This document shows positions 42,341 through 62,006 of a stretch of DNA of 64,000 nucleotides, piece by piece. A program made the position numbers and the translations under genes. The stretch is from the NCBI RefSeq assembly GCF_030944405.1, contig NZ_CP132339.1, positions 5,084,001 through 5,148,000 of the forward strand, in the 5' to 3' direction. The notes below the pieces were generated by a model, which worked only from the letters and a program-made list of their open reading frames with translations, was not told where the DNA came from and ran no database searches. This DNA comes from Janthinobacterium sp. J1-1 (lineage in GTDB: Bacteria > Pseudomonadota > Gammaproteobacteria > Burkholderiales > Burkholderiaceae_D). The first letter of the stretch is position 1. Each line of letters begins with the position of its first letter.

Positions 42341-43375
42341 TCAAGCGCTGGCGCGCGCGATCAGTTCGTACTGCAAGGGCTCCGGCGCCAGCGGGGCGCT
42401 GCCCTCTTCCAGCTCGCCCAGCCGCAATAGAATCGCTTGCGCCGCGAGGCAGCCGATGTCGTAGCGCGGCACGCGGATGGTGGTCAGCGCGGGCGTGAGT
42501 TTTTCGGAAAACGGAAAGTCGCCAAAGCCGGCCACCGCGCACTGCTCGGGAATGCGGATGCCGGCGCGCGCCGCCTCGTAGATGGCACCGGCGGCCATAT
42601 TGTCGTTGGCAAAAAACAAGGCATCGGGCCGGTCGGCGCGCGCCATCTGCGCGCTGAACACTTCCGCGCCCGCGTCCAGCGGCGCAATGGCGATGGCTTG
42701 CACGATCCGTGGCGCCAGGCCCAGTTCGCGCATGGTTTCCTCATAGCCCTCGGCCCGCTTGCGGGCGCGGAAGTCGCTGCCGATGCCGCTGTCGACATAG
42801 ACGATGTTGCGGTAGCCCCGGCCATGCAGGTACAAGGTCATGTCGCGCCCGGTGGCCCGGTGCGAAAAGCCGATCTGCGGATACGGCCGCTCGGGGCGCA
42901 CGTCCCAGGTTTCGATCACGGGGATGTGCAGGCCGGCCAGCAGGGTTTCGGTGGCGGCGCTATGATCGGCGCCTGTCAGCACCAGCGCGCGCGGCGACCA
43001 GCCGAGAAAGGCGCGCACCACTTTTTCTTCCGTTTCGACCGAGTAATCGTGGGTTGCCAACAACAACTGGTAATTATGTTTCGACAAGGTTGTCGACAGG
43101 CCCTGGATGGTTTCGGCAAAGATGGAATTCGACACGCTGGGCACGATGGCGCCGACGATGCGCCCTTGCGTGGACGCCAGGCCGCCGGCCGCCTCGTTGC
43201 GGATATAGCCGAGCTGGTCGATGGCGCTCTTGATGCGCTCGCGCGTTTCCTGCGACACGCGGTCCGGTTCCTTGAAGTAGCGCGAGACGGAAATGGCCGA
43301 CGTCTGCGCCAGCTTGGCCACGTCGAACACGGTGCTGCGGCCCAGGCCGCGGCGCTTGCGTACGGGATCGTTCAT
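42341..43375 (-). CDS. LacI-family regulator of the sulfoquinovose locus
   Basis: The 344-residue LacI/GntR-type regulator has an N-terminal HTH and hinge (STVFDVAKLAQTSAISVSRY and RIKSAIDQLGYIRNEAAGGL) and a periplasmic-binding-like effector domain with IVGAIVPSVSNSIFAETIQG, FFANDNMAAGAIYEAAR and CAVAGFGDFPFSEKLTPALT. It is divergent from the dehydratase gene, with a palindromic operator between them. The ligand is probably a pathway intermediate such as sulfoquinovose or a derivative; that is inference. ATG 43375 is chosen near the HTH; the frame opens further to 43432. Confidence 0.87.
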   Translation of the reverse strand: MNDPVRKRRGLGRSTVFDVAKLAQTSAISVSRYFKEPDRVSQETRERIKSAIDQLGYIRNEAAGGLASTQGRIVGAIVPSVSNSIFAETIQGLSTTLSKHNYQLLLATHDYSVETEEKVVRAFLGWSPRALVLTGADHSAATETLLAGLHIPVIETWDVRPERPYPQIGFSHRATGRDMTLYLHGRGYRNIVYVDSGIGSDFRARKRAEGYEETMRELGLAPRIVQAIAIAPLDAGAEVFSAQMARADRPDALFFANDNMAAGAIYEAARAGIRIPEQCAVAGFGDFPFSEKLTPALTTIRVPRYDIGCLAAQAILLRLGELEEGSAPLAPEPLQYELIARASA

Positions 43376-43523
43376 GGGTACTGCCTGCTCTGGCGTGTGA
43401 GCGCCGGGTTTTGCATGTGCATAAATTCCCATATGGAAATTAGTTAAAAGAAATCATGCCGATAGTGTAATGCCAGTGTGCTTGCGGCGGCACACGGCGC
43501 GCATTGTAGCGTCATTAAATCGG

Positions 43524-43552
43524 TTGACAACGGGGATCGATTCAAATTATAT
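43524..43552 (+). promoter_or_regulatory. Sigma-70 promoter for the sulfoquinovose operon
   Basis: TTGACA (43524-43529), a 17-bp spacer and TTATAT (43547-43552) make a near-consensus promoter, with transcription expected to begin around 43560. It is the best promoter seen in the window and points at the TTG-started dehydratase gene at 43661. Confidence 0.8.
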
Positions 43553-43568
43553 TTCGCTGTGCTTGCAA

Positions 43569-43582
43569 TGTTAGCGCTAACA
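43569..43582. promoter_or_regulatory. LacI-type operator TGTTAGCGCTAACA
   Basis: A perfect 14-bp palindrome starting about 10 bp downstream of the predicted transcription start, where a bound repressor would block RNA polymerase. The sequence is a classic LacI/GntR-family operator; the same 14-mer is the xylose-operon box of Caulobacter. A 13/14 copy lies in the porin gene at 54769-54782. Confidence 0.82.
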
Positions 43583-43660
43583 AAGACGACATGCAAGACC
43601 CGAGACAGCGCCACTGGACAGCCATACGCAGCTGGCCAGGCACACGATAAAGGACACACA

Positions 43661-45397
43661 TTGAGCTCCGCCACCTCCCGCCGCACGCTGGAATCGCTGC
43701 GCAGCCAGCGCTGGCTGGCCCCCGACGACATGCGTTCGTTCGCCCACCGCCAGCGCCTGCAGCAAATGGGCTTGCGCCGCGAAGAATTCCTCGACCGCCC
43801 CGTGATCGCCATCATCAACACCTGGAGCGACCTGTCGCCCTGCCATTCGCATCTGCGCGAGCGGGCCGAAGCCGTCAAGCGCGGCATCCTGCTGGCCGGC
43901 GGCTTTCCGGTCGAACTGCCGGCCCTGTCGCTGGGCGAAGTGATGGTCAAGCCGACCACCATGATCTACCGCAACTTCCTGGCGATGGAAACGGAAGAGC
44001 TGCTGCGCTCGCTGCCGATCGACGGCGCGGTGCTGCTGGGCGGCTGCGACAAGACCACGCCGGGCATGCTGATGGGGGCCATCAGCATGGATATTCCCGC
44101 CATCTTCTGCCCCGCCGGCCCCATGCTCAACGACCGCTACCGTGGCCAGAGCGTGGGCGCGGGCACGCATACCAAGAAATTCTGGGACGACTACGTGGCC
44201 GGCGACATCGCCAAACCCGAGTGGATCAAGCTCGAAGCGAAGATGACGCGCTCGCCCGGCACCTGCAACACCATGGGCACGGCCTCGACCATGACGTCCA
44301 TCGTCGAAGCCATGGGTTTTACCTTGCCCGGCGCGACCAGCATCCCGGCGATGGACGCCAACCATGTGCGCATGGCCTCGCAATGCGGCGAGCGCATCGT
44401 CGGCATGGTGTGGGAAGACCTGAAGCCGTCGCGCTTTTTCACCCGTGCTTCGCTGTCGAACGGCGTGGCGGCCTATATGGCGCTCGGTGGCTCGACCAAT
44501 GCGGCGATCCACCTGATCGCGATTGCCGGACGCGCCGGCATGACGCTGTCGCTCGAGGAAATGGATGCGATGGCGCACAAGGTGCCGGTGATCGCCAACC
44601 TGTTCCCGTCCGGCGACAAACTGATGGAGGATTTTTTCTATGCGGGCGGCATGCCGGCCCTGCTCAAGGAAATCACGCCCCAGCTGGATTTGTCGGCGCT
44701 GACCGTCACCGGCCGCAGCCTGGGCGACAATATCGCCGACGCCGTCTGCCTGGACGACAGCGTGATCCGCAAGGTGTCGCAGCCGGTGGCCGATGGCGCG
44801 GCGCTGGCCGTCTTGCGCGGCAACCTGTGCCCGGGCGGCGCCGTGATCAAGCCGTCGGCCGCCAATCCGAAATTTGCCAAACACCGTGGCCGCGCGCTGG
44901 TGTTCGATTCGAACGCCGAGATGCTGGCGCAGATCCACGCGCCCGACCTCGACATCGATGAAAACACGGTGCTGATCCTGCGCAACGGCGGCCCGATCGG
45001 CGCGCCCGGCATGCCGGAGTGGGGCAATCTGCCGGTGCCGAAAAAACTGCTGCAGCAAGGCGTGCGCGACATGGTGCGCATTTCCGACGCGCGCATGAGC
45101 GGCACCCACTACGGCACCTGCGTGCTGCACGTCACGCCCGAAGCGGCCGTCGGCGGCCCGCTGGCCCTGGTGCGCAACGGCGACATGATAGTCCTGGACA
45201 TCGCCGCGCGCAGCCTGAACATGGACGTGCCGGAAGAGGAACTGGCGCGCCGCCGCGCCGCATGGCTGCCGCCGGCGCAGAAATATGCGCGCGGCTATAC
45301 GCGGCTGTACATGGAGCACGTGACCCAGGCCGACCAGGGCTGCGACCTCGACTTCCTGCTGGGCAATGCGGCCACGCCCGAGCCGCCGATTTTCTGA
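43661..45397 (+). CDS. IlvD/Edd-family dehydratase, probable 6-deoxy-6-sulfogluconate dehydratase
   Basis: The 578-residue product has the three Fe-S cysteines of the family: C61 (SPCHSHL), C129 (GGCDKTTP) and C202 (GTCNTMGTASTM). Length and TWSDLSPC/NTMGTAS pattern fit the sugar-acid dehydratase branch (arabonate/xylonate type), not IlvD. In this locus it should convert 6-deoxy-6-sulfogluconate to 2-keto-3,6-dideoxy-6-sulfogluconate. Start is TTG 43661 with AAAGGA upstream; no ATG fits. First gene of the operon. Confidence 0.85.
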   Translation: MSSATSRRTLESLRSQRWLAPDDMRSFAHRQRLQQMGLRREEFLDRPVIAIINTWSDLSPCHSHLRERAEAVKRGILLAGGFPVELPALSLGEVMVKPTTMIYRNFLAMETEELLRSLPIDGAVLLGGCDKTTPGMLMGAISMDIPAIFCPAGPMLNDRYRGQSVGAGTHTKKFWDDYVAGDIAKPEWIKLEAKMTRSPGTCNTMGTASTMTSIVEAMGFTLPGATSIPAMDANHVRMASQCGERIVGMVWEDLKPSRFFTRASLSNGVAAYMALGGSTNAAIHLIAIAGRAGMTLSLEEMDAMAHKVPVIANLFPSGDKLMEDFFYAGGMPALLKEITPQLDLSALTVTGRSLGDNIADAVCLDDSVIRKVSQPVADGAALAVLRGNLCPGGAVIKPSAANPKFAKHRGRALVFDSNAEMLAQIHAPDLDIDENTVLILRNGGPIGAPGMPEWGNLPVPKKLLQQGVRDMVRISDARMSGTHYGTCVLHVTPEAAVGGPLALVRNGDMIVLDIAARSLNMDVPEEELARRRAAWLPPAQKYARGYTRLYMEHVTQADQGCDLDFLLGNAATPEPPIF

Positions 45398-45440
45398 TTG
45401 CCGCCTTACTACATATATATAGAGAGAGCACAGGATCACC

Positions 45441-46253
45441 ATGGATATATTGAACAACCCCTTCCGCGCCCTGCTGGCGGACCACACGGTACCGCTGGGC
45501 AGTTGGCTGATGGCCGGCACGCCCGTCACGGCCGAAGCCATGGGCTGCGCCGGCTTCGACTGGCTGGTGCTGGACATGGAACACGTGCCCATCGACTACC
45601 AGGACGCCTACCAGATCCTGCAGGCGCTGGGCGGCACGCCGGCCGCTCCCGTGGTGCGCCTGGCCTGGAACGACCTGGTGCAGATCAAGCGCGCGCTCGA
45701 TATCGGCGCCCAGACATTGATGTTCCCGTTCGTGGAAAACGCGGAGGAGGCGCGCAGCGCCGTGGCCGCCACCCGCTACCCGATGCCGGGCCAGGCCGTA
45801 CCCGGCACGCGTGGTTTTGCCGCCGTGCACCGCGCCAGCCGCTATGGCACCGTGGCCGGCTATGCGGCGCGCGCCAACGATGCCGTGTTTTCCATCATTC
45901 AGCTGGAAACCCCGGCCGCGCTGGCACAATTGGAAGAGATCGCCAGCGTGGAAGGCGTCGACGCCCTGTTCGTGGGGCCGGGCGACCTGTCGGCCAATAT
46001 GGGCCATATCGGCAATATCGGCCACCCGGAGGTGCAGGCGGCGATTGCCGACGCGGCGCGGCGCGCACGCGCCATCGGCAAGCCGATCGGCATCGTCGGC
46101 CCCACGCCGGAAATGCTGCAAACCTTTATCGGCTACGGCTACGACTTTGTCGCCGTCGCCTCGGACCTGGGCATGATGATGCGCCAGGCGAATGCCTTTA
46201 TCGCGGCACTCAAACCGTCATTGGCGAAAACCGTCGAGACGGGCGTGTACTGA
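45441..46253 (+). CDS. HpcH/HpaI-family aldolase, probable KDSG aldolase
   Basis: The 270-residue class II aldolase has the catalytic histidine in DMEHVPIDY (H48), substrate arginine R73 (VVRLAWND) and metal ligands E156 (IIQLETPAA) and D182 (VGPGDLSANMG). Family members cleave 2-keto-3-deoxy acids into pyruvate and an aldehyde. Here that would be pyruvate plus 3-sulfolactaldehyde. The intergenic DNA just upstream holds short (AT)n(AG)n runs (45411-45427). Confidence 0.86.
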   Translation: MDILNNPFRALLADHTVPLGSWLMAGTPVTAEAMGCAGFDWLVLDMEHVPIDYQDAYQILQALGGTPAAPVVRLAWNDLVQIKRALDIGAQTLMFPFVENAEEARSAVAATRYPMPGQAVPGTRGFAAVHRASRYGTVAGYAARANDAVFSIIQLETPAALAQLEEIASVEGVDALFVGPGDLSANMGHIGNIGHPEVQAAIADAARRARAIGKPIGIVGPTPEMLQTFIGYGYDFVAVASDLGMMMRQANAFIAALKPSLAKTVETGVY

Positions 46254-46315
46254 TTTTTTTGCAACAGCATATGGAGCGCGCTCAGACGCGTCATTCGCAT
46301 TCTTTGGAGACGAGC

Positions 46316-47419
46316 ATGTCAGGTGTAAAACTGGAAAAGGTTGTCAAAAAATATGACAACGGCGTCGAAGTCATTCATGGCATCGACCTGGAAATCAAGA
46401 AGGGCGAATTCGTCGTCTTTGTGGGCCCCTCGGGCTGCGGCAAATCGACGCTGATGCGCATGGTGGCGGGCCTGGAATCGATCACCGGCGGCACCATCTC
46501 GATCGAGGGCCAGGTGGTGAACGACCTGCCGCCGCGCGAACGCGACATCGCCATGGTGTTCCAGGACTATGCGCTGTACCCGCATAAATCCGTGTTCGAC
46601 AACCTCGGTTTTGGTTTGAAACTGCGCAATTTTCCGAAGGCGGAAATCGAGCAGCGCGTGCGGGCCGCCGCCGCCATTCTGAAGATCGAGCACTTGCTGG
46701 ACCGCAAACCGCGCGCCCTGTCCGGCGGCCAGCGCCAGCGCGTGGCCATGGGCCGCGCCATCGTGCGCCAGGCGCGGCTGTTCCTGTTCGACGAACCGCT
46801 GTCGAATCTGGACGCCCTGCTGCGTTCGGAAATGCGCACGGAAATCAAGAAGCTGCACCAGCGCATCGGCGCCACCACCATTTATGTCACGCATGACCAG
46901 GTCGAGGCCATGACCCTGGCCGAGCGCATCGTGGTGCTGTCGGGCGGCAAGATCATGCAGGTCGGCACGCCAGACCAGATCTACAACGAACCGGTGTCGA
47001 AATTCGTCGCCGGTTTCACGGGGTCGCCGCCGATGAATTTTCTTGGAGCAAAGGTCGCGCGCGGCAGCGATGGCCAGGCAGAAATCGTGCTGGGCACGGC
47101 GCGCCTGGACCTGCCGCCCGCCGCGCAAGCCGCTTGTGGCAAGCTCGACGGCCGGCAAGTGGAATTCGGCATCCGCCCGGAAGACATCACGCTCGACGCG
47201 GCCGGCCCGGCCAGCGCGCCGCTGACGGCCACCGTGGTGGTGGTCGAGCCGCTGGGCGCCGAAACCCTGGTGATCTTCCAGTGCCAGGGCGGCGAGCTGA
47301 CGGCCCGTTTGCCGCCCACCTTTGCGCTGGCGCCCGGCCAGCAGGTAACGGTACACCTGGACATGGAAAAATTCCATCTGTTCGACCCGCAGGGCGGCGC
47401 GGTGCTGCCATCAAAATAA
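46316..47419 (+). CDS. MalK-type ABC transporter ATPase for sulfoquinovose import
   Basis: The 367-residue ATPase has Walker A GPSGCGKST, signature LSGGQRQRV, Walker B LFLFDEPLSNLD, the switch His (VTHDQVEAM) and a C-terminal OB/TOBE domain (~240-365) including GIRPEDI. This is the CUT1 family design for oligosaccharide-like uptake. It serves the binding protein and permeases that follow directly. TTGGAGACG precedes ATG 46316. Confidence 0.9.
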   Translation: MSGVKLEKVVKKYDNGVEVIHGIDLEIKKGEFVVFVGPSGCGKSTLMRMVAGLESITGGTISIEGQVVNDLPPRERDIAMVFQDYALYPHKSVFDNLGFGLKLRNFPKAEIEQRVRAAAAILKIEHLLDRKPRALSGGQRQRVAMGRAIVRQARLFLFDEPLSNLDALLRSEMRTEIKKLHQRIGATTIYVTHDQVEAMTLAERIVVLSGGKIMQVGTPDQIYNEPVSKFVAGFTGSPPMNFLGAKVARGSDGQAEIVLGTARLDLPPAAQAACGKLDGRQVEFGIRPEDITLDAAGPASAPLTATVVVVEPLGAETLVIFQCQGGELTARLPPTFALAPGQQVTVHLDMEKFHLFDPQGGAVLPSK

Positions 47420-47462
47420 GCTCGGCACAGTCCGGCATACAAACTCAACAGGAGACACAACC

Positions 47463-48710
47463 ATGCGTATCAAATCCCTCGTGCTGGCGCTCGGCGCCAC
47501 TTTTGTTCTGGCCACCGCCGCCCACGCGCAAACCGTGAAGGTCTTTGTCGGCGGCCAGGAGCGTCCCGAAGTCATGCGCGAACTGTTCGCCAAGTTCATG
47601 GCCGCCAATCCCGGCGTCAAGATCGACCTGGAAACGGGCGGCGCCACCTCGGAATTGCAACAGAAATACCTGAACACGGTGCTGTCGGCCGGCGACTCGA
47701 CCCTGGACGTGTTCCTGATCGACATCATCCGCCCTGCCCAGTACGCCTCGGCCGGCTGGATCGAAAGCCTGGACAAATACCTGGGCGCCGACCGCGACAA
47801 GATCATGGGCCAGTACCTGCCCGCCTACAAGCAGGCCAATATGGTCGACAACAAGGTCGTCGCCCTGCCCGCATTTGCCGACGCCATGTTCCTGTACTAC
47901 CGCAAGGACTTGCTGGCCAAATACAAGCTGTCGCCGCCGAAAACCTGGGATGAGCTGGCCACCGTGGCGCGCACCATCCAGGCCGGCGAAAAGAATCCTG
48001 AACTGCAGGGCATCAGCTTCCAGGGCAAGGCCATTGAAGGCGCCGTCTGCACCTTCCTGCTGCCGTACTGGAGCCAGGGCGGCGAGCTGATCACCAATGG
48101 CAAGCTGAGCCTGGACAAGCCCAAGGCCGAAGCGGGCCTGGCCATGTGGCGCAAGCTGGTCGACCAGGGCGTGGCGAAAAAGAATATCGCCGAAGTGGCC
48201 ACCGACGACACGCGCAAAGAATTCCAGGCCGGCAATGTGCTGTTCGCCGTCAACTGGGGCTATGCCTGGAACCACTTTCAGGAAGGCGACAGCGGCGTCA
48301 AGGACAAGGTCGGCGTGGTCAGCCTGCCGGCCATGGCGGGCGGCAAACCGGCTTCCTGCATCGGCGGCTGGCAGTGGGCCGTGTCCTCGTACTCGAAAAA
48401 CAAGGAAGCGTCGGCCAAGCTGGTGCGCTGGCTGTCCAGCCCCGAAGTATCGAAACAGCTGGCGCTGAAGGCGTCCAACCTGCCCGTCTATCCGTCGGTC
48501 TACCAGGACAAGGAAGTGCTGGCCGTCAATGGCTGGTTCGCCGATGCGCTGCCGGTGGTGCAAAGCGCCCGCTCGCGCCCCGTCACGCCGCGCTACAGCG
48601 AAGTGTCGGAAGCGATCCGCGTCAATACCAATGCGGTGATGGCGGGCGTGAAAACCCCGGCGGCCGGCGTGGCCGAGATCGAAAACCGGGTCAAGCGCAT
48701 CCTGCGCTAA
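47463..48710 (+). CDS. Periplasmic sugar-binding protein (CUT1) of the sulfoquinovose transporter
   Basis: The 415-residue product has a signal peptide (MRIKSLVLALGATFVLATAAHAQ, cleavage at AHA-Q) and an SBP_bac_1 fold with VFLIDIIRPAQYASAGWIES, LPAFADAMFLYYRKDLLAKY and GGWQWAVSSYSKNKEASAKL. Family members of this locus type bind sulfoquinovosyl glycerol or sulfoquinovose. AGGAGACA precedes the ATG, which gives it 8 nt of complementarity to the small-RNA repeats. Confidence 0.9.
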   Translation: MRIKSLVLALGATFVLATAAHAQTVKVFVGGQERPEVMRELFAKFMAANPGVKIDLETGGATSELQQKYLNTVLSAGDSTLDVFLIDIIRPAQYASAGWIESLDKYLGADRDKIMGQYLPAYKQANMVDNKVVALPAFADAMFLYYRKDLLAKYKLSPPKTWDELATVARTIQAGEKNPELQGISFQGKAIEGAVCTFLLPYWSQGGELITNGKLSLDKPKAEAGLAMWRKLVDQGVAKKNIAEVATDDTRKEFQAGNVLFAVNWGYAWNHFQEGDSGVKDKVGVVSLPAMAGGKPASCIGGWQWAVSSYSKNKEASAKLVRWLSSPEVSKQLALKASNLPVYPSVYQDKEVLAVNGWFADALPVVQSARSRPVTPRYSEVSEAIRVNTNAVMAGVKTPAAGVAEIENRVKRILR

Positions 48711-48790
48711 CCGGCTCCAGCCGGGCCGCCATCAATACGGCCCGGGCTGGACATTGGACACGCATACGCACCGCAACAGTCGAGGAAAAC

Positions 48791-49705
48791 ATGAGGCAAC
48801 GCACCCTGAAAAGCCGCATCACGGACCCCAGCGAAACCACGCTGGCCTGGGTCCTGCTGACGCCGGCGATTCTCTTTTTACTGCTGATCGTGGCCTACCC
48901 GGTCAGCAAACTGATCTACAACAGCTTTTTCGATATCCGCCTGTCCGGCGGCGGCTTGCCCGCCTTTGTCGGGCTGGACAACTACAAGCTGGCGCTGGAA
49001 GACAGCCTGTTCTGGAAGTCGCTGAAAAACACCCTCATCATCACGGTGGTGACGGTGCCCGGCGCGCTGGTGGCGGGCCTGGGCCTGGCCATGCTGGCCA
49101 ATATGCCGTTCAAATACCGCTGGCCGGTGCGCCTGGCGCTGCTGCTGCCGTGGGCGCTGCCGCTGGCCTTTGTCGGCCTGATCTTCGCGTGGTTCTTCCA
49201 CAGCGAATACGGCCTGGTGAACGACATCATCCGCCGCATCGACCTGCTGTTCCCGGCCCTGGGCTGGCAGCCGCAGATCTGGTTCAATTCGCCGGCGCTG
49301 ACGATGGCCGCCATCTGCATCACCACCATCTGGAAAACCTCGTCGTTCATGGCGCTGATTTTGCTCGCCGGCCTGCAGACCATCCCCGCCTCGCTCTATG
49401 AAGCGGCCGAAGTGGATGGCGCCAGCAAGTGGAAGCAATTCACGGAAGTGACCCTGCCGCTCCTGGTGCCGTCGATGCTGGTGGCGCTGATCTTCCGCAC
49501 CCTGACGGCCATCCAGTCGTTCGACATTCCCTACAACATGCCCGGCCCTGGCGACGAGACCAAGACCCTGGCCATGTATATCCAGTCCAATACCGTCGAC
49601 TACCTCGACGTGGGCTATGGCTCGACCCTGGCCGTCTTCATGTTCCTGCTGTCGATGGCCACCACGTTCGTGTACTTGAAATATGTCAGAGGAGACAAAG
49701 AATGA
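48791..49705 (+). CDS. ABC sugar permease (MalF-like)
   Basis: The 304-residue protein has six transmembrane segments and the EAA loop EAAEVDGASKWKQFTEVTLP near residue ~215-235, typical of CUT1 permeases. It pairs with the MalG-like permease that overlaps it by 4 bp. ATG 48791 follows GAGGAAAAC; the reading frame opens upstream as a shadow of the binding-protein gene. Confidence 0.89.
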   Translation: MRQRTLKSRITDPSETTLAWVLLTPAILFLLLIVAYPVSKLIYNSFFDIRLSGGGLPAFVGLDNYKLALEDSLFWKSLKNTLIITVVTVPGALVAGLGLAMLANMPFKYRWPVRLALLLPWALPLAFVGLIFAWFFHSEYGLVNDIIRRIDLLFPALGWQPQIWFNSPALTMAAICITTIWKTSSFMALILLAGLQTIPASLYEAAEVDGASKWKQFTEVTLPLLVPSMLVALIFRTLTAIQSFDIPYNMPGPGDETKTLAMYIQSNTVDYLDVGYGSTLAVFMFLLSMATTFVYLKYVRGDKE

Positions 49706-50532
49706 GCGGCCTGTTTTCATCGAAGCGCCTGCGCTGGTTCGCCGCCGCGATCGTCATCCTGAACGGCGTCTTCCCCGCCCTGTGGATCTTGTTTACCTCG
49801 CTGAAAACCGAGAGCGAACTGACGCAAAAGCCGATCACCTACTGGCCGCACGAACCGACCATCGCCAATTTCATCTCGGCCTTCCAGGACCAGCCGCTGC
49901 TGACGTTCCTCACCAACAGCCTGATCGTGGCCGGCCTGTCGACCCTGCTCAGCCTGTTCATCAGCGCGCTGGCCGCGTATGCGATCGCCCGCCTGCGCCT
50001 GCGTTTCCGTGGCCTGATCCTCACCGCCATTATCGGCGTGTCGATGTTCCCGCTGGTGACCCTGATGGTGCCGCTGTTCGAGATCATGCGCAGCCTGGGC
50101 TTGTTGAATTCGTACTGGGCGCTGGTGCTGCCCTACACGGTGCTCAACCTGCCGATCTGCACCCTGATGATGGTCAGCTTTTTCCAGGATATTCCGCGCG
50201 ATATCGAAAACGCGGCCATGCTCGACGGCTGCACCCGCATCAGCGCCCTGTGGCGCATCGTGCTGCCGCTGGCCGCACCGGGCGTGGCGACGGCCGCCAT
50301 CCTGGCGTTCGTGAACTCCTGGGATGAATTCCTGCTGGCGCTGTCGATGAATTCGGCCGTGGCCTACCGCACCCTGCCGGTCGGCATCCAGCTGTACCAG
50401 GGCGAGTTCGCCTTCCCGTGGCCGATCATTTCGGCGGCGCTGGTGGTGGCCATCGTGCCCATCGTCGTGCTGATCGTGATCTTCCAGGAAAAGGTCGTCA
50501 GCGGCCTGACCTCGGGCGGCTTGAAGGGGTAA
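49702..50532 (+). CDS. ABC sugar permease (MalG-like)
   Basis: The 276-residue protein has six transmembrane segments and the EAA-like loop ENAAMLDGCTRISALWRIVL. It completes the importer. The SD is AGAGGAGACA at 49688-49697, a perfect 10-nt complement to the C/U-rich stretch of the small-RNA repeats. Confidence 0.89.
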   Translation: MSGLFSSKRLRWFAAAIVILNGVFPALWILFTSLKTESELTQKPITYWPHEPTIANFISAFQDQPLLTFLTNSLIVAGLSTLLSLFISALAAYAIARLRLRFRGLILTAIIGVSMFPLVTLMVPLFEIMRSLGLLNSYWALVLPYTVLNLPICTLMMVSFFQDIPRDIENAAMLDGCTRISALWRIVLPLAAPGVATAAILAFVNSWDEFLLALSMNSAVAYRTLPVGIQLYQGEFAFPWPIISAALVVAIVPIVVLIVIFQEKVVSGLTSGGLKG

Positions 50533-50535
50533 TGC

Positions 50536-53130: not shown

Positions 53131-53157
53131 CCCCTTTCACTCTATTAGGAGCACCCC

Positions 53158-54612
53158 ATGTTGAACCTGCAAGACGCAAGCCTGTTGAAACAGCAATGCC
53201 TGATCGATGGCGTCTGGTGCGATGCCGATGACGGCGCCACCATCGCCGTCACCAACCCGGCCACCGGCGACATCATCGCCACCGTGCCGCGCATGGGCGC
53301 GCTGGAGACGCGGCGCGCCATCGCCGCTTCGCACACCGCGTTCAAAGCGTGGCGCAAACAGACCGTCAAGGCGCGCGCCAGCGTGCTGCGCGCCTGGCAC
53401 GCGCTGATCCTGCAACACGCCGACGACCTGGCGCTGATACTCACCAGCGAACAGGGCAAGTCGCTGGCGGAAGCGAAGGGCGAGATCGTCTCGAACGCGG
53501 CCTACCTGGAATGGTTTGCCGAGGAAGGCAAGCGCGCCTATGGCGACGTGATCGCGCCGCCGTCCAGCGACAAGCGCATCGTCGTCATCAAGCAGCCGAT
53601 CGGTGTGTGCGCGGCCATCACGCCGTGGAATTTCCCGAACGGCATGATCACGCGCAAGGCCGGGCCGGCCCTGGCCGCCGGCTGCGCCATGGTCCTGAAA
53701 CCGGCCTCGCAAACGCCTCTGTCGGCCCTGGCCCTCGGTGAACTGGCGCTGCGCGCCGGCGTGCCACCGGGCGTATTCAATGTGGTGACGGGCGCCGCTC
53801 AGGCGATCGGCACGGAACTGTGCCACAACAACCTGGTGCGCAAGATCACGTTTACCGGCTCGACCGAAGTGGGCGCCTGGCTGTCGCGCGAGGCGGCCGG
53901 CACCATCAAGAAGCTGTCGCTGGAACTGGGCGGCAACGCGCCGTTCATCGTGTTCGAGGACGCCGATATCGATGCGGCCGTCGACGGCGTCTTGATGTCG
54001 AAATACCGCAACAGCGGCCAGACCTGTGTCTGCGCCAACCGCATCTACGTCCAGGACGGCATCTACGACGATTTTGCGGCCCGTTTGGTGGCCAAGGTGG
54101 AACAGCTGAAACTGGGCAACGGGCTTGAAGCGGGCGTGACGCAAGGCCCGCTGATCGACGAGAACGCCGTGCGCAAGATCGAGCAGCATGTGGCCGACGC
54201 GCTGGCCAAGGGCGGCAAGCTGGCTATCGGCGGCAAGCGCCATGCGCTGGGCGGCAGCTTTTTCGAGCCGACCGTGGTGCTGGACGCGAACAGCACCATG
54301 CTGGTGGCGCGCGAGGAAACCTTCGCCCCACTGGCGCCGCTGTTCCGCTTCAGCACTGAAGAGGAAGTGATCGCGCTGGCCAACGACACCGAATTCGGCC
54401 TGGCCGGCTATTTCTACAGCCGCGACCTGGGCCGCGTCTGGCGCGTGGCGGAGGAACTGGAAGTGGGCATGGTCGGCATCAACACGGGCATGATCGCCAA
54501 TGAAATGGCGCCGTTCGGCGGCGTCAAGCATTCCGGCATGGGCCGCGAAGGGTCGCATTACGGCATGGACGACTTCCTCGATATCAAATATCTGTGCATG
54601 GGAGGCATCTGA
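53158..54612 (+). CDS. Aldehyde dehydrogenase (GabD-like), probable sulfolactaldehyde dehydrogenase
   Basis: The 484-residue ALDH has the proton-relay Glu in LELGGNAP (E256), the nucleophile C290 in NSGQTCVCANR, TPWNFPNG and FTGSTEVG. It is closest in style to succinate-semialdehyde dehydrogenases, the family from which the sulfo-ED sulfolactaldehyde dehydrogenase is drawn. It would oxidise 3-sulfolactaldehyde to sulfolactate with NAD(P)+. Confidence 0.87.
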   Translation: MLNLQDASLLKQQCLIDGVWCDADDGATIAVTNPATGDIIATVPRMGALETRRAIAASHTAFKAWRKQTVKARASVLRAWHALILQHADDLALILTSEQGKSLAEAKGEIVSNAAYLEWFAEEGKRAYGDVIAPPSSDKRIVVIKQPIGVCAAITPWNFPNGMITRKAGPALAAGCAMVLKPASQTPLSALALGELALRAGVPPGVFNVVTGAAQAIGTELCHNNLVRKITFTGSTEVGAWLSREAAGTIKKLSLELGGNAPFIVFEDADIDAAVDGVLMSKYRNSGQTCVCANRIYVQDGIYDDFAARLVAKVEQLKLGNGLEAGVTQGPLIDENAVRKIEQHVADALAKGGKLAIGGKRHALGGSFFEPTVVLDANSTMLVAREETFAPLAPLFRFSTEEEVIALANDTEFGLAGYFYSRDLGRVWRVAEELEVGMVGINTGMIANEMAPFGGVKHSGMGREGSHYGMDDFLDIKYLCMGGI

Positions 54613-54618
54613 ATTCAA

Positions 54619-54636: not shown

Positions 54637-54700
54637 CGCAGCACCGCAGCAAGCAGGGATCACCAGGACTATCCATATAAAAAATACAGGAGACAAGATC

Positions 54701-56119
54701 ATGCAAACCACCATCCGCAAGACCACCATGGCCCGCGCCATCACCGCCCTCTTCTTTGCGGCGCCATTTGTTAGCGCTAACGTGCGCGCCGACGAGCTCA
54801 GCGACATGAAGGCCATGCTGGCCCAATTGCAGGAAAGAGTGGCACAGATGGAAGCCAGGGCGGCCCAGCCGGCGCCGGAGCCAGCTGCGGCCACCACCGC
54901 CATGGCGCCGGCCACCGCAGCGGCGGCACCGGCGGCGCCGGCAAAGTCAAACACCGGTTTCAACTGGAAACTGTATGGCCGTGGCGATATCGGCTACACG
55001 GTCTCGCGCGGCAAGGACGCCAGCGGCCGCCAGCTGACCAACCACCGTTTGAACCAGGGCGAGATGGCCAGCCGCCTCGGTCTCACCGGTTCCTGGGTCT
55101 TCAGCGACGAATACAAGGCCATCTTCGGCGTCGAAACCGGCCTCAATCTGTTCAACGGCAACGCCGGCGGCGGCACGCAGAACAACACCAGTTCGTCCGT
55201 GCTGTTCAACCGCGGCTCGACCGTCGGCTTTGCCTCGACCACCTGGGGTTCGATCGAAGGCGGCACCATGTACATGGCGCCGTTCTGGGTCTCGCTGGGG
55301 GCCGACCTGGCCTCGGCCCACAACTACGGCGCGAATGACTTCAGCGCCCTGTTTTCGCTGACGCGCCCCGAGTCCCTGGGCCGCTACCTGAAGGACCCCG
55401 TCACCGGCAACGCCAGCAAGACCACCAGCCTGGCCGGCAACAACTCGGGCACGGCCCTGTTCTACGGCAACGCGCTGCGCTACCGCAGCCCGACCTACAA
55501 CAACTTCTCGGCCGAAGTGTCGTATTCGGCCGGCCAGCAGGCGTCTTCCGCCACGGCGCTCGAAGACGACGGTCGCAGCTGGGCCGCCAATGTGCTGTAC
55601 AAGAAGGACAATCTGTTCCTCGGCTACGCCCATATGGACTACCAGCAAAGCAACGATATCAGCACGGCCGCAAGCAGCAACTTCGTCAAGCGCAACCAGG
55701 TCACGGACATCGTCGGCGCGCGCTACAAGTGGAACGACTTTACATTGGGCGGCTCCTACACCTCGTACCGCGTGTCGAACGCGGGCGGCTACGGCGCCGA
55801 CGCGTTCGGCGTCTCGGGCGCCTATGACCTGGGCAAGCACCGCATCGAAGGCAGCCTGGCGCAGATCAGCTACGACGGCGCCAACAGCCGCGGCGCGTTC
55901 GGCGCCAACACGGGCGACGGCGTGGGCAAGCCGAAGTCGACCGCCTACTCGCTGGGCTATCTGTACAACTTCCAGCCGACCCTGTCGTTCTATGCCTACG
56001 CCACCCGCATCAAGAATAATGAGCATGCCAAGCTGGGCGTATTGCAGTTCCGCGGGGACAATAACTATTTTGGCTACAGCCCGGTCGAACTGACCGCCGG
56101 CATGTTCCTCGTCTTTTAA
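54701..56119 (+). CDS. Outer-membrane porin of the sulfoquinovose locus
   Basis: The 472-residue product has a signal peptide (~1-31, ending VRA-DE), a coiled-coil segment with Leu heptads (ELSDMKAMLAQLQERVAQME), an Ala/Pro-rich linker and a C-terminal Porin_4-type barrel (FNWKLYGRGDIGYTVSRGKD ... ending in Phe, MFLVF). Outer-membrane barrels end in an aromatic residue. It probably admits sulfoquinovosyl glycerol. AGGAGACA lies before ATG 54701. A copy of the LacI-type operator lies within its signal-peptide codons. Confidence 0.87.
   Translation: MQTTIRKTTMARAITALFFAAPFVSANVRADELSDMKAMLAQLQERVAQMEARAAQPAPEPAAATTAMAPATAAAAPAAPAKSNTGFNWKLYGRGDIGYTVSRGKDASGRQLTNHRLNQGEMASRLGLTGSWVFSDEYKAIFGVETGLNLFNGNAGGGTQNNTSSSVLFNRGSTVGFASTTWGSIEGGTMYMAPFWVSLGADLASAHNYGANDFSALFSLTRPESLGRYLKDPVTGNASKTTSLAGNNSGTALFYGNALRYRSPTYNNFSAEVSYSAGQQASSATALEDDGRSWAANVLYKKDNLFLGYAHMDYQQSNDISTAASSNFVKRNQVTDIVGARYKWNDFTLGGSYTSYRVSNAGGYGADAFGVSGAYDLGKHRIEGSLAQISYDGANSRGAFGANTGDGVGKPKSTAYSLGYLYNFQPTLSFYAYATRIKNNEHAKLGVLQFRGDNNYFGYSPVELTAGMFLVF
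54769..54782. promoter_or_regulatory. Second LacI-type operator, inside the porin coding sequence
   Basis: TGTTAGCGCTAACG matches the upstream operator at 13 of 14 positions and contains the same perfect 12-bp palindrome. It lies 68 bp into the porin gene, coding for FVSANV in the signal peptide. A bound repressor here could act as a roadblock, limit an internal promoter, or loop to the operator at 43569. Confidence 0.65.
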
Positions 56120-56138
56120 TCATCAGGAGTAGCTCGAC

Positions 56139-58160
56139 ATGCAGTTCACACTAGATCAGGAAAACGACGGCCTTGCGCTGCGCTGCGCGGGCCGCCTGCT
56201 GCTGCGCCACGACACGCAGGCGCCGTGCCTGTTCGTCGGCCAGGGCCGCGAACGGATGGATATGTACCGCGGCAATTTCGACATCGAAGATTACGTTGAA
56301 GAACGCACCGCCCTGCGCCATCTGGCGATCACGCAAGACGAAGGGGTCGCGCTGCTGGCCTTTGCGCGCCATCCTGGCGATGCGCCGCAGCTGGTGCTGC
56401 GTGTGCAGGCGCAGCAGCATGGCGTGCACCTGGTGCTGCAGCACGCGGCGCCGGGCTGGAACCGGCTGTGGCTGCGCCTGCCCGCCGAACACGATGAGCA
56501 CGTGTGGGGCTGCGGCGAGCAGATGTCCTACTTCGACCTGCGCGGGCGCCACTTTCCGCTGTGGACCTCGGAGCCGGGCGTGGGCCGCGACAAGTCGACC
56601 CACCTGACCTGGCAGGCCGACGTGACGGCCAAGTCGGGCGGCGACTACTATCACACCAACTACCCGCAACCGAGCTTCATTTCCTCGCAGCGCTACTGCC
56701 TGCATGCCGAAACGACGGCCTATGCCGACTTCGATTTCCGCCATGCCGACTTCCACGAGCTGCAATTCTGGGCCATGCCCGAGCGCCTGGAATTCATGCT
56801 GGCCGATTCCTTCGTCGACCTGGTCGGCGTGGTGTCGCAACGCTTCGGCCGCCAGCCCAAGCTGCCGGCCTGGCTGCAGAACGGCGCCATGCTGGGCCTG
56901 AAAGGCGGCGAAGACCACGCGCGCGCCATCCTCGCGCAGGCGAAGGAACACGGCCTGGCCGTCAGCGCCCTGTGGTGCGAAGACTGGGTGGGACTGCGCC
57001 AGACCTCGTTCGGCAAGCGCCTGTTCTGGGACTGGCGCTGGCAGCCGCAGCGCTATCCGGACCTGAAGCAATGGATCGCCGACCTGGCCAGGGAAGACAT
57101 CCGCTTCCTCGGCTACGTCAATCCCTACCTGTGCAATGACGGCACCCTGTACCAGGAAGCGCTGCAGCAAGGCTTTTTGGCCACCGCGATGGATGGCGGC
57201 ACCTATCTGGTCGACTTCGGCGAATTCGATTGCGGCGTGGTCGACTTCACCAACCCGGCCGCCGCGCAGTGGTTCGAGGACCGCGTGCTGCGACAGGAAA
57301 TGCTGGACTTCGGTTTGTCCGGCTGGATGGCCGATTTCGGCGAATACCTGCCGATCGACCTGCGCCTGCACAATGGCGTCGACGCACGCCTGATGCACAA
57401 CGCCTGGCCGACCCTGTGGGCCGAAGTCAACGCACGCGCCATCGCAGCGGCCGGCAAGACCGGCGACGCCACCTTCTTCATGCGTGCCGGCTATACCGGC
57501 GTGCAGGCGCACTGCCCTTTGCTGTGGGCCGGCGACCAGTCGGTCGACTTCAGCCGCCACGACGGCTTGCAGACGGTGATCTGCGGCGCGCTGTCGTCCG
57601 GTTTGCTGGGCAACGCCTACCACCACAGCGATATCGGCGGCTACACGAGCTTGTTCGGCAACCTGCGCACGGCCGAGCTGTTCCAGCGCTGGACCGAGAT
57701 GGCGGTATTTACTTCGATGATGCGCACGCATGAAGGCAACCGCCCGGACGAGAACTTCCAGTTCTACCAGGATGAACAGGTGTTCGCCCACTTCGCCCGC
57801 ATGACGCGCCTGCACGTGGCGCTGGCGCCCGTCATCGCCGCCCTGGCCGACGACGCCGTGCGGCATGGCCTGCCGCTGCAGCGCCCCCTGTTCCTGCACT
57901 ACGAGCAGGACCGCGCCACCTACGCCATCCAGGACCAGTACCTGTTCGGCCCCGACCTGCTGGTGGCGCCCGTGCATGCGGCCGGCGCCACGCGCTGGGG
58001 CGCCTACCTGCCGCAGGGCGACGCCTGGGTCCATCTGTGGAGCGGCGCCGTGTTCGACGGCGGCCTGCGCGTGGAAGTGGCGGCGCCACTGGGCCAGCCA
58101 CCCGTGTTCGTGCGCCAGGGCTGCGCGCAGCAGGTGTTTTTACTGTCGCTGGCGGCATGA
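56139..58160 (+). CDS. yihQ: GH31 sulfoquinovosidase (YihQ family)
   Basis: The 673-residue protein aligns along its length with E. coli YihQ. Catalytic nucleophile D399 (GWMADFGEYLP) and acid/base D466 (WAGDQSVDFS). The sulfonate-recognition residues R294 and W297 (FGKRLFWDW) and Y502 (HHSDIGGYTSLF) match YihQ R301, W304 and Y508. These distinguish sulfoquinovosidases from ordinary alpha-glucosidases. There is no signal peptide, so hydrolysis of sulfoquinovosyl glycerol happens in the cytoplasm after import. It starts 19 bp after the porin stop. Confidence 0.94.
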   Translation: MQFTLDQENDGLALRCAGRLLLRHDTQAPCLFVGQGRERMDMYRGNFDIEDYVEERTALRHLAITQDEGVALLAFARHPGDAPQLVLRVQAQQHGVHLVLQHAAPGWNRLWLRLPAEHDEHVWGCGEQMSYFDLRGRHFPLWTSEPGVGRDKSTHLTWQADVTAKSGGDYYHTNYPQPSFISSQRYCLHAETTAYADFDFRHADFHELQFWAMPERLEFMLADSFVDLVGVVSQRFGRQPKLPAWLQNGAMLGLKGGEDHARAILAQAKEHGLAVSALWCEDWVGLRQTSFGKRLFWDWRWQPQRYPDLKQWIADLAREDIRFLGYVNPYLCNDGTLYQEALQQGFLATAMDGGTYLVDFGEFDCGVVDFTNPAAAQWFEDRVLRQEMLDFGLSGWMADFGEYLPIDLRLHNGVDARLMHNAWPTLWAEVNARAIAAAGKTGDATFFMRAGYTGVQAHCPLLWAGDQSVDFSRHDGLQTVICGALSSGLLGNAYHHSDIGGYTSLFGNLRTAELFQRWTEMAVFTSMMRTHEGNRPDENFQFYQDEQVFAHFARMTRLHVALAPVIAALADDAVRHGLPLQRPLFLHYEQDRATYAIQDQYLFGPDLLVAPVHAAGATRWGAYLPQGDAWVHLWSGAVFDGGLRVEVAAPLGQPPVFVRQGCAQQVFLLSLAA

Positions 58161-58167
58161 GCCTGAC

Positions 58168-58929
58168 ATGAGCATCGGGTCGCACCTGTTGTTCCTGGCC
58201 TGCGTGGCGCTGGCCAGCTACGCGCAGAACCTGACCGGTTTTGCGTTCGGGCTGATCCTGCTGGGCCTGACGGCGGTGCTGCACCTGGCCAGTCTGGGCG
58301 ACGTGGCCAATGTGGTCAGCGTGCTGGTGCTGGTGAATGCGGCCATCACCTTTGGCCGTCACAAGCCGCAGCTGGTGTGGCCGGTGTTCGGGCCGTCGCT
58401 GGCCTGCAGCCTGGTCGGCGTGGGCGCCGGCGTGGCGCTGCTGGGCTGGTTCAGCGCGCAGCAGGTCAGCCTGCTGCGTTTTTTGCTCGGCTGCGCCATC
58501 ATCGTCTGCGCATTCCTGCTGGTGCTGCGCGCCAGCACGCGCGCAAAACAGTCCGGCCTGCCCTCGTTCCTGTTCTTCAGTGGGGTCTCCGGCGTGATGG
58601 GCGGCCTGTTCGCCAGCGCCGGCCCGCCCATGGTGTATCACCTGTACCGCCAGCCGTGGCCGGCCGACATGGTCCGCCATTCGCTGATCGTGCTGTTTGC
58701 CGCCAACGCCGTGCTGCGCCTGGCGCTGGTGCTGGCGCACGGCCAGTTCAGCATGACGGCGGTGTGGCTGACCGTCGAAGCGCTGCCGGTGGTGATGGGC
58801 CTGACCTGGCTGGCCCGCCGCTACCCGTCCCGCCTGCCGTTACAGCACGTGCGGCGCGCCGTGTTCGTGCTGCTGCTGGCCGCCGGCCTGGCGCTGGTGC
58901 TGCCGCCGGTGCTGGCACTGCTCCATTGA
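58168..58929 (+). CDS. TauE/SafE-family permease, probable sulfolactate exporter
   Basis: The 253-residue protein has about eight hydrophobic segments and the paired motifs of the family (SYAQNLTGFAFGLILLGL near the N-terminus, SGVMGGLFASAGPPMVYHL in the second half). TauE/SafE proteins move organosulfonates or sulfite out of cells and often accompany sulfonate-releasing pathways. Directly after the sulfoquinovosidase gene, export of sulfolactate is the natural role. Direction and substrate are inferred. Confidence 0.82.
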   Translation: MSIGSHLLFLACVALASYAQNLTGFAFGLILLGLTAVLHLASLGDVANVVSVLVLVNAAITFGRHKPQLVWPVFGPSLACSLVGVGAGVALLGWFSAQQVSLLRFLLGCAIIVCAFLLVLRASTRAKQSGLPSFLFFSGVSGVMGGLFASAGPPMVYHLYRQPWPADMVRHSLIVLFAANAVLRLALVLAHGQFSMTAVWLTVEALPVVMGLTWLARRYPSRLPLQHVRRAVFVLLLAAGLALVLPPVLALLH

Positions 58930-58959
58930 GTCATCTCTCTTTTAATAAATCGAGTCCTT

Positions 58960-60519
58960 ATGTCCGCATCCCGCTTTACCTCCCTGCCCCCTGATTGCGA
59001 CCTGCTGGTCGTCGGCGGCGGCATCAATGGCGCCGGCATCGCGCGCGACGCGGCCGGCCGTGGCCTGCGCGTGGTGCTGTGCGAACAGCACGACCTGGCG
59101 CAGCATACCTCGTCGGCCTCCACCAAGCTGATACACGGTGGCCTGCGCTACCTCGAATACTATGAATTCAAGCTGGTGCGCAAGGCGCTGCAGGAACGCG
59201 AAGTGCTGCTGCGCGCCGCTCCCCACATCATGTGGCCGATGCGTTTCGTGATGCCGCATGACGCTGCCCAGCGCCCGGCCTGGCTGATACGCGCCGGCCT
59301 GTTCCTGTACGACCACCTGGCCAAACGCGCCTTTTTGCCCGCCTCGCAGGCGATCACCCTGGCCAGGCACGCGGCCGGCGCGCCGCTCAAGCCCGGCTAC
59401 CGCAAGGGCTTCGTGTATTCAGACGGCTGGGTCGACGACGCCAGGCTGGTGGTGCTCAATGCGCTAGCCGCGCAGGAACGCGGCGCGCACATCCTCACGC
59501 GCACCGCCTGCGTCGACGCGCACCGCGATGGCGATGGCTGGCAGGCCACCCTGCAAGGTCCCGACGGCCAACGCCGCAGCCTGCGGGCGCGCGCCATCGT
59601 CAATGCGGCCGGGCCGTGGACGGCGCAGTTTGCCGGCGCGGCCGGCGGCGGCAGGACGCAGGGACTGCGCCTGATCAAGGGCAGCCATATCATCGTGCCG
59701 CGCCTGTTCGAGCATCCGAACGCGTATATTTTCCAGAACCCGGACCAGCGCATCATCTTCGCGATTCCCTACCAGGACGACTACACCCTGATCGGCACCA
59801 CCGACGAGGAATACAAGGGCGACGTGGCGCAGGTCAAAATCAGCGGCGATGAAATCGCCTATCTGTGCCAGGCCGCCAACCGCTATTTCCGGCGCGAGAT
59901 CGGCCCGTCCGACGTGGTGTGGACCTATTCCGGCGTGCGCCCGCTGCTCGACGACAGCGCCCGGGACGCGTCGGCCGTCACGCGCGACTATCTGCTGGAA
60001 GTGGCGCGCGGCGACACGGGCACGGGCGCACCGCTGCTCAATATCTGGGGTGGCAAGATCACCACCTACCGCAAACTGGCCGAGGAGGCGATGGCGCTGC
60101 TGGCGCCCTTGCTGGCCAACACCCGGCCCGCCTGGACCGCCGATGCGCCGCTGCCGGGCGGCGACCTGCAGCGGCCGGGCCAGCTGGTGGACAGCCATGA
60201 TTTCGACGGCTTCCTGGCCCGCTTCCAGCAGGCGCATCCCTGGTTGCCCCCCAAGCTGGCGCACCGCTACGCACGCGCCTATGGCAGCCGCGCCACGCGC
60301 GTGCTGGCGGGCGCGAACTCGATGGCGGGCCTGGGCGCGGAACTGGCGCCCGGCCTGCACGAGGCCGAAGCGCGCTACCTGGTCGACGTGGAATGGGCGA
60401 GGAGCTGCGACGACATATTATGGCGGCGCAGCAAACTGGGCCTGCGCTGCCAGCCGGCCGACGTGGCGCGCCTGCAGCTGTGGCTTGAAGCCTGCCTGGC
60501 GCAGCAGGTGGCGGCATGA
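58960..60519 (+). CDS. glpD: Glycerol-3-phosphate dehydrogenase GlpD (FAD)
   Basis: The 519-residue membrane-associated flavoenzyme has the FAD-binding GGGINGAG (residues 19-26), [16 protein letters not shown] and [17 protein letters not shown], all typical of GlpD. It oxidises glycerol-3-phosphate to dihydroxyacetone phosphate. It overlaps glpK by ATGA. In this place it probably consumes the glycerol freed by the sulfoquinovosidase. Confidence 0.93.
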
Positions 60520-62006
60520 GCTATCTGCTGGCCCTCGACCAGGGCACCTCCAGCTCGCGCAGCATGGTCTTCGACGAAGCGGGCGCCATCGTCGCCGTGG
60601 CGCAGCGCGAATTTCGCCAGCTGTTTCCGCAGCCGGGCTGGATCGAACACGATCCGATCGAAATCTGGCACAGCCAGCTCGCCACCAGCCGCGAAGTGCT
60701 GCTGAAAGCCGGCTTGACGGCGGCGGACCTGGGCGCGCTGGGCATCACCAACCAGCGCGAAACGACGGTGGTGTGGGACCGCGCCACGGGCGAGCCCGTC
60801 TACAATGCCATCGTCTGGCAGGACCGGCGCACCGAGGCGCTGTGCGACAGCCTGCGCGAGCGGGGACTGGCCGGCGCCATCCATGCCAGGACGGGGCTGG
60901 TGCTCGATCCCTATTTTTCCGGCACCAAGCTGCGCTGGATACTCGACGAAGTGCCGGGCGTGCGCGCACGCGCCATGCGCGGCGAGCTGGCCTTCGGCAC
61001 CATCGACGCCTGGCTGGCCTGGCAGATGACGGGCGGGCGCCTGCACGTGACCGACGTGACGAACGCCTCGCGCACCATGCTGTGGAATATCCATGAAGGC
61101 TGCTGGGACGCTCAGCTGCTCGACTGGCTGGGCATCCCCGCCAGCCTGCTGCCCACCGTCCATCCGTCCAGCCATGTGTACGGCGAAACCGACGCCGAGG
61201 TGCTGGGCAGCCCGGTCATCATCGGCGGCATCGCCGGCGACCAGCAAGCGGCGCTGTTCGGCCAGACCTGCTTCAAGCCCGGCATGGCCAAGAATACCTA
61301 TGGTACGGGCTGCTTCCTGCTGCTCAACACGGGCGAGCAGTGTGCGCAATCGCGGCATGGCCTGATCAGCACGGCCGCCTGTCAGGTGGGTGCGCAGCCG
61401 GCCTATGCGCTCGAAGGCAGCGTGTTTATCGGCGGCGCCGTGGTGCAGTGGCTGCGCGACGGCCTGGGCGCCATCGGCCACGCCAGCGAAGCGGAAAGCC
61501 TGGCCGCCTCGGTGCCCGATTCGGGCGGCGTGGTGTTCGTGCCCTCGTTTACGGGGCTGGGCGCACCCTACTGGGTACCGTCGGCCAAGGGCGCCATCCT
61601 GGGCCTGAGCCGCGGCAGCACGGTGGGCCATATCGCGCGCGCGGCGCTCGAAGCGATCGCCTTCCAGAGCGCGGCCCTGCTGCAGGCCATGACCCTCGAC
61701 GCACAGGCGCCGATCACCGAACTGCGCGTGGACGGCGGCGCCTGCGCCAACAACCTGCTGCTGCAATTCCAGGCCGACCTGCTGGGCATCCCCGTAGTGC
61801 GCCCGCAAGTGATCGAAACGACGGCCCTGGGCGCGGCCTACCTGGCCGGCCTGGCGATCGGCCAGTATCGCGGCACCGAGGAACTGGCAGCGCAATGGCG
61901 TGTGGAAAGGACCTTCCTGCCCACCATCGGCCGCGACCAGGCGGCCGAGCTGATGCGGCAATGGGAAACGGCGGTGCGGCGGTTTGCGGGCAACGGGGAA
62001 AACTGA
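60516..62006 (+). CDS. glpK: Glycerol kinase GlpK
   Basis: The 496-residue FGGY-family kinase begins [20 protein letters not shown], with [23 protein letters not shown] and [14 protein letters not shown], the GlpK signature. It phosphorylates glycerol. No glpF or glpR is present, which fits glycerol arriving as a sulfoquinovosyl glycoside rather than free. Last gene of the sulfoquinovose locus. Confidence 0.94.

Follow-up and report, generated by a model that had tools for sequence, protein, structure and literature searches.

Sulfoquinovose (SQ) is the sulfur sugar of plant membranes. Does Janthinobacterium sp. J1-1 carry a complete pathway for its degradation, of which type, and with a use for the glycerol half of sulfoquinovosyl glycerol (SQGro)? 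The question is raised by a stretch of 64,000 nt of its genome (NZ_CP132339.1, positions 5,084,001-5,148,000, here called the window), in which an earlier note had listed, at window positions 42341-62006, all the genes of a sulfo-Entner-Doudoroff (sulfo-ED) locus. We found every gene of that list as an intact frame at its given place, and each belonged to the expected family. Our analysis of the sequence indicates that the region is, with high probability, a complete sulfo-ED locus. It is more than a chance assembly, because its sulfoquinovosidase matches the solved structure 5ohy at an E value of 1.3e-292 and the gene order from LacI to TauE recurs in nine further Janthinobacterium genomes. 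With this finding, sulfoquinovose breakdown can be assigned to some members of the genus, and a way is suggested in which the sugar and the glycerol of the plant sulfolipid head group could both be used.

The pathway itself is already known. The sulfo-ED route of Pseudomonas putida SQ1 was reportedly described by Felux in 2015. Reviews, in the portions available, place sulfo-ED clusters in alpha-, beta- and gammaproteobacteria (PMC12890257, PMC9594981), and a 2018 paper predicted such an operon in Herbaspirillum (PMC5902678). The strain in question, H. seropedicae AU14040, is also a betaproteobacterium, and the accessible part of the paper includes an assay of its mutarotase, HsSQM. What the present locus adds is a pair of glycerol gene paralogues inside the operon, an arrangement of two predicted operator sites and a setting bounded by repeats.

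Genes of the locus and their closest solved relatives

The genes from the dehydratase to GlpK are collinear, and lacI diverges from this operon. Pfam assigned LacI, ILVD_EDD, HpcH_HpaI, SBP_bac_1, Aldose_epim, SGL (SMP-30), short-chain dehydrogenase (SDR), Porin_4, GH31 and TauE, together with ALDH, an ABC ATPase and two permeases; GlpD, GlpK and the GH31 protein (model PRK10426) exceeded their NCBIfam cut-offs. For four of the products (the sulfoquinovosidase, the SQ dehydrogenase, the binding protein and the aldehyde dehydrogenase) the closest solved relative is in each case a sulfosugar protein. In three of them we checked catalytic, cofactor or substrate positions, and all 23 were conserved (six in the sulfoquinovosidase, ten in the SQ dehydrogenase and seven in the aldehyde dehydrogenase).

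The GH31 sulfoquinovosidase of YihQ type (56139..58160, + strand) matched 5ohy with 976 bits and 5ohs with 974 bits, both named yihQ, followed by 8r56 (869 bits) and 6pnr (788 bits), named only GH31 or alpha-glucosidase, and by 5aed, a sulfoquinovosidase YihQ (733 bits). Beyond 5aed and its variant the next match, 5f7c, falls to 157 bits. R294, W297 and Y502 are at the positions that had been claimed for them, and Q288, D399 and D466 are in place too. We take the first three to be the sulfonate triad and D399 and D466 to be the catalytic aspartates. 5ohy and 5ohs differ at the position of D466 (D versus N), which is consistent with a mutated catalytic residue. The binding protein (47463..48710, +) had its best match in 7nbz, SmoF, with 516 bits, the next PDB entry reaching 211. 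Both 5ohy/5ohs and the solved SmoF-type SQGro-binding protein are presumably of Agrobacterium origin, so that these two components would be most like those of Agrobacterium clusters of the SQ monooxygenase (sulfo-SMO) type.

The best PDB match of the SDR protein (52345..53130, +) was 9gwu, named sulfoquinovose 1-dehydrogenase, whose numbering agrees with that of the P. putida enzyme in the available part of its description (PMC12133307). All the ten residues listed there (D45, D99, R101, N119, S147, R152, R154, Y160, K164 and Q198) are conserved, including D45, which is of the NAD type, and the arginines that contact the sulfonate, R152 and R154, and the pathway logic is also common to the P. 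putida SQ1 system and the Janthinobacterium locus. In the same way, the aldehyde dehydrogenase of GabD/SlaB type (53158..54612, +) was best matched by 8c54, which we take as the Rhizobium GabD because its numbering fits the published one (PMC10599462). The sulfolactaldehyde dehydrogenase of the Rhizobium leguminosarum sulfo-ED pathway, as given in the accessible text of that paper, was the residue reference, and W162-N163-F164, R171, E261, R289 and C295 are all conserved.

With these proteins a complete route can be proposed. SQGro or SQ would pass the outer membrane, probably through the porin (Porin_4, PF13609; 54701..56119, +), be caught by the SmoF-like protein and be imported by an ABC transporter with a UgpC/MalK-type ATPase (PF00005/TOBE; 46316..47419, +) and two permeases (both PF00528; 48791..49705 and 49702..50532, +). 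The sulfoquinovosidase would split SQGro to SQ and glycerol. A predicted mutarotase of the aldose 1-epimerase family (50536..51423, +; PF01263, 113 bits to 3nre) would equilibrate SQ, and the SDR enzyme would oxidise it to the lactone. This would be opened by a putative 6-deoxy-6-sulfogluconolactonase of the SMP-30 family (51416..52348, +; PF08450 at 253 bits, scanned in a longer frame). The IlvD/Edd enzyme (43661..45397, +; PF00920/PF24877, with a TTG start assumed at 43661), a predicted 6-deoxy-6-sulfogluconate dehydratase, would then yield 2-keto-3,6-dideoxy-6-sulfogluconate (KDSG), which the HpcH/HpaI aldolase (45441..46253, +; PF03328, 222 bits to 1dxe) would cleave to pyruvate and sulfolactaldehyde (SLA). 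Finally, the aldehyde dehydrogenase would convert SLA to sulfolactate, probably exported by the TauE/SafE protein (58168..58929, +; PF01925, scanned in a longer frame). Within the genus, the mutarotase is the fastest diverging protein of the locus, with identities of 62-87% versus 77-100% for the other mapped proteins.

Pathway variant and fate of sulfolactate

The set of families is that of sulfo-ED: an SDR-family SQ dehydrogenase with the SQ-contact residues, an SMP-30 lactonase (PF08450, whose specificity for sulfogluconolactone is assigned by family), a dehydratase of PF00920, which is the family of the sulfogluconate dehydratases, a KDSG-type aldolase of PF03328 and an SLA dehydrogenase with the W-N-F, R, E, R and C positions of its 8c54 match, all next to a GH31 sulfoquinovosidase with its R/W/Y triad and two catalytic Asp. 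The earlier assignment to this pathway is thus borne out by the solved sulfosugar relatives, the conserved residues and the dehydratase family, as far as sequence can tell. A Vibrio variant of sulfo-ED yields 2,3-dihydroxypropane-1-sulfonate via an SLA reductase, according to the accessible part of PMC13372026; the Janthinobacterium locus has a dehydrogenase instead.

What happens to the sulfolactate? Searching the whole genome we found no Xsc protein at the cut-off, and the four relatives below it have counterparts, also below the cut-off, in each of the 14 control genomes. Nor did we see a clear SuyAB in the genome, in a survey that included no search with SuyAB or CuyA references of their own. 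For these reasons sulfolactate is probably the end product and excreted. Complete mineralisation, in which sulfolactate would be cleaved further and TauE would export sulfite, appears improbable to us. It would agree with the Pfam name of PF01925, sulfite exporter TauE/SafE, and with the presence of three PF04295 proteins in the genome. However, two of these lie within frames of 545 and 564 aa, the only short one has neighbours that resemble an oxidative pathway of the fucose/rhamnose type, and by frame length or neighbours all three look like sugar-acid dehydratases; the result for Xsc stands against mineralisation as well, to be read with the limit just given for SuyAB and CuyA.

One candidate for SuyBA was considered and discarded, a GarD/UxaA-type pair of 407 and 111 aa at G000:C1:6.28 Mb, whose neighbours suggest a fucose- or rhamnose-type pathway. 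By frame reading they are a FAH-like protein, an SDR, an aldo/keto reductase, an amidohydrolase, a mutarotase and a sugar ABC ATPase. Of 317 plasmid records with a match, 30 were listed; wherever an annotated feature among these carried a name, it was UxaA family hydrolase or altronate dehydratase, and the best matches listed were unnamed. We read the region (G000:C1:6.276-6.284 Mb, L178) as a likely oxidative sugar cluster of the fucose/rhamnose type. Its UxaA/GarD-type dehydratase is split into a protein of 407 aa and a SAF protein of 111 aa and could be mistaken for the sulfolactate sulfo-lyase SuyAB.

Other sulfosugar pathways fit less well. Sulfo-SMO, which splits the C-S bond with an oxygenase (PMC9594981) and occurs in Agrobacterium (PMC13372026, both sources as far as available), does not apply here, since the genes assigned in the locus, from frames of 150 aa or longer, include no SQ monooxygenase. 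That the locus serves another sulfosugar by a sulfo-ED-like route, particularly sulfofucose, is very improbable. The sulfofucolytic ED pathway shares the logic of dehydrogenase, lactonase, dehydratase, aldolase and ABC importer (PMC12421959), but its dehydratase belongs to PF13378/PF02746 and that of the locus to PF00920, on which ground we rejected this possibility. Besides, the accessible text of the same paper identifies neither a sulfofucosidase nor a GabD homologue, whereas the locus has a GH31 sulfoquinovosidase and a GabD-type enzyme.

Several results weigh against the assignment to sulfo-ED and have to be set beside it. The PDB matches carried no sulfo-specific name for the dehydratase (18 matches, the best of them named dihydroxyacid dehydratase and L-arabinonate dehydratase) or for the aldolase (21 matches), and for this reason these two enzymes are placed by family and context, as is the lactonase. 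The NCBIfam names for the dehydratase, the aldehyde dehydrogenase, the GH31 protein and the SDR are generic, so that the family libraries leave the sulfo-specific steps unnamed: the dehydratase reaches 926 bits with the L-arabinonate dehydratase model (cut-off 882), the aldehyde dehydrogenase tops the cut-off of the succinate semialdehyde dehydrogenase subfamily, the GH31 protein passes under the name alpha-glucosidase, and the best model for the SDR, below its cut-off, is D-xylose 1-dehydrogenase. A generic pentonate or hexonate locus with an alpha-glucosidase and no link to sulfonates, which all these names would suit, is nevertheless the least probable of the alternatives, because a single operon holds the sulfonate-contact arginines of the SQ dehydrogenase, the proposed sulfonate arginines of the SLA dehydrogenase, the R/W/Y triad of the sulfoquinovosidase and a SmoF-like protein.

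Glycerol genes and comparison with other loci

The sulfo-ED operon ends with two glycerol genes, GlpD, a glycerol-3-phosphate dehydrogenase (58960..60519, +), and GlpK, a glycerol kinase (60516..62006, +), both identified with NCBIfam and both additional copies in the genome. Elsewhere there is a second glpK (61% identical), next to a binding protein and two permease-like frames, and about 6 kb from it a second glpD (65% identical); weaker relatives of both are found as well. Among the genes of the locus there is no glycerol importer for GlpD and GlpK, which agrees with a supply of glycerol released from SQGro within the cell. We infer that they serve this glycerol, which would pass through GlpK and GlpD to glycolysis. 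In nine of the ten genus genomes with the locus, glpD and glpK follow TauE. The remaining one (G072) has no GlpD or GlpK match after TauE, and its sole glpK is the other one. A second glpK alone is no marker of SQ use, because six other genomes of the genus have two glpK genes without any sulfoquinovosidase match.

Of 40 genomes examined in the genus, 10, with J1-1 among them, have the sulfoquinovosidase, at identities of 85-100%, and the order of the genes from lacI to TauE is identical in all of these carriers. In the family, the enzyme was present in 13 of 294 genomes (E up to 1e-100), namely the same ten, two of another genus (72-74% identity) and one at 38%.

In order to see how the locus compares with others, we used 80 named sulfoquinovosidase loci, kept out of at least 597 matching stretches. 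Relatives of the dehydratase (identity of 40% or more) were found in 34 of them, and the trio of dehydratase, aldolase and SQ dehydrogenase in 33; two named Janthinobacterium loci fall outside the 33 because the fetched flank ends before the dehydratase. Five loci with Agrobacterium in their titles (L011, L016, L017, L019 and L039) lack the trio. The locus of Rhizobium lentis (L013) resembles that of Janthinobacterium in LacI, the SmoF-like ABC importer, dehydratase, aldolase, lactonase, SQ dehydrogenase, sulfoquinovosidase, TauE and aldehyde dehydrogenase, but it has no match to the porin, GlpD, GlpK or the mutarotase. That of Pseudomonas sp. BP8 (L008) differs in gene order and has no SmoF-like match.

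The earlier note had also held that the Janthinobacterium locus, with its own porin and glycerol genes, is more self-contained than those described. In part this stands. The two Janthinobacterium loci are the only ones of the 80 to combine the porin with GlpD and GlpK. Singly, however, each is also found elsewhere. Over all 80, GlpK is within 5 kb of the sulfoquinovosidase in 8 loci and GlpD in 9, and a porin match anywhere was found in 5; these are lower bounds, because contig ends truncate some of the loci and porin sequences change rapidly. Moreover, one of the ten Janthinobacterium carriers lacks glpDK. In the open literature searched, Janthinobacterium and sulfoquinovose are named together only in a plant-microbiome survey.

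Predicted operators and chromosomal setting

How could such an operon be controlled? A predicted sigma-70 promoter, TTGACA-18-TATATT (43524..43553, +), has both hexamers conserved in 10/10 aligned loci of the genus. Located 15 bases past its -10 hexamer is TGTTAGCGCTAACA (43569..43582), a perfect palindrome of 14 bp and the predicted primary operator of a LacI-family regulator. The divergent lacI (42341..43432, - strand) codes for a LacI/GntR-type repressor, probably the local regulator (PF00356/PF13377; 295 bits with NF052440, under its cut-off of 400). In the 6.95 Mb genome of J1-1, the only one in which rarity was measured, two places match the operator with at most one mismatch, and both are in the locus: the one at the promoter and TGTTAGCGCTAACG in the signal-peptide codons of the porin gene (54769..54782), which we predict to be a second operator. 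The reversed control pattern gave 0 matches. Both sites are kept in the ten carriers of the genus, identical in the nine other than J1-1. The two carriers of another genus in the family have neither site, even with up to three mismatches allowed.

The case for the porin operator is that the site is rare in the genome and conserved. With up to three mismatches, the window alone holds 3 sites versus 1.5 expected, a number reached by 17 of 100 shuffles and therefore not above chance. The four porin codons under the second site are invariant in the ten genomes, although the proportion of codon-invariant columns in the porin, site columns included, was only 30% for V (of 10), 66% for S (29), 26% for A (35) and 52% for N (21). 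By itself this conservation is no proof, because the gene contains four further stretches in which at least four consecutive codons do not vary. Another palindrome, AGCCAGCGCTGG, at the start of the dehydratase gene, was discarded as an operator; it is dictated by a conserved peptide, RSQRW, and 14 of 25 listed loci have it in their dehydratase too. Outside the genus, 25 of 38 loci with a LacI gene have a near-palindrome with an AGCGCT core within 500 bases upstream of it, such as TAATAGCGCTATTA (Rhizobium) and TCGCAGCGCTGCGA (Paraburkholderia).

The repressor would hold the operon off through the promoter operator and perhaps also through the one inside the porin gene. The latter may act by looping or as a roadblock, like the known auxiliary operators of lac. 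The pair, with one member within coding sequence, makes a testable prediction. The porin frame itself varies in length, with 387 aa in one carrier (G123; L096, porin at 13433) and 463-472 aa in the other nine genomes.

The sulfo-ED locus lies within a direct-repeat array of three copies of RF02278, a toxic small RNA of betaproteobacteria, all on the - strand. Rfam placed one at 41980-42040, one bordering the 5' side of the locus at 42191..42251 (56.6 bits, gathering score 50) and one on the 3' side at 63625..63685 (57.8 bits). In Herbaspirillum this RNA has been described as having no known function and as able to inhibit the growth of E. coli when carried on a cloning vector (PMC7011215). A copy just past lacI is found in nine of the ten carriers, and one within about 1.7 kb past the 3' end in eight of the nine with that side fetched. 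One carrier (G244) has no copy on either side of the locus.

We compared six genomes of the genus without the locus, chosen from those with the neighbouring transporter gene. The fetched stretch of the same region contains 4-6 copies of RF02278 in these genomes. With the flanks of the carriers G256 and G221 as the reference, three of the six bring the two sides to within about 70-120 bp of each other; a fourth has about 0.75 kb of other DNA in between, and in the remaining two the interval is about 1.3 kb and holds another RF02278 copy. J1-1 lacks the segments found ahead of the locus in G256 and G221. More generally, in the window and in L179-L184, segments between copies of RF02278 are present or absent from genome to genome. 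Such variation suggests a hot spot at which units may be exchanged, and by this comparison the locus looks like one of the units that are gained or lost between direct repeats, whatever the direction and mechanism. Tentatively, and with slightly less than even confidence, we propose that Janthinobacterium has a sulfo-ED unit for whole SQGro, in which the carbon of the sugar would pass through sulfo-ED and the glycerol through dedicated GlpD-GlpK paralogues of the operon, under one LacI-type repressor with two operators 11.2 kb apart, the second within porin codons and acting by looping or roadblock, and that this unit is gained or lost between direct RF02278 repeats.

Between glpK and the 3' copy of RF02278 in the window there is an AbiEi/AbiEii pair (62121-63618), of the type IV toxin-antitoxin or phage-defence type. 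In two other carriers, G256 and G123, a copy of RF02278 is found within about 30 bases after the glpK match.

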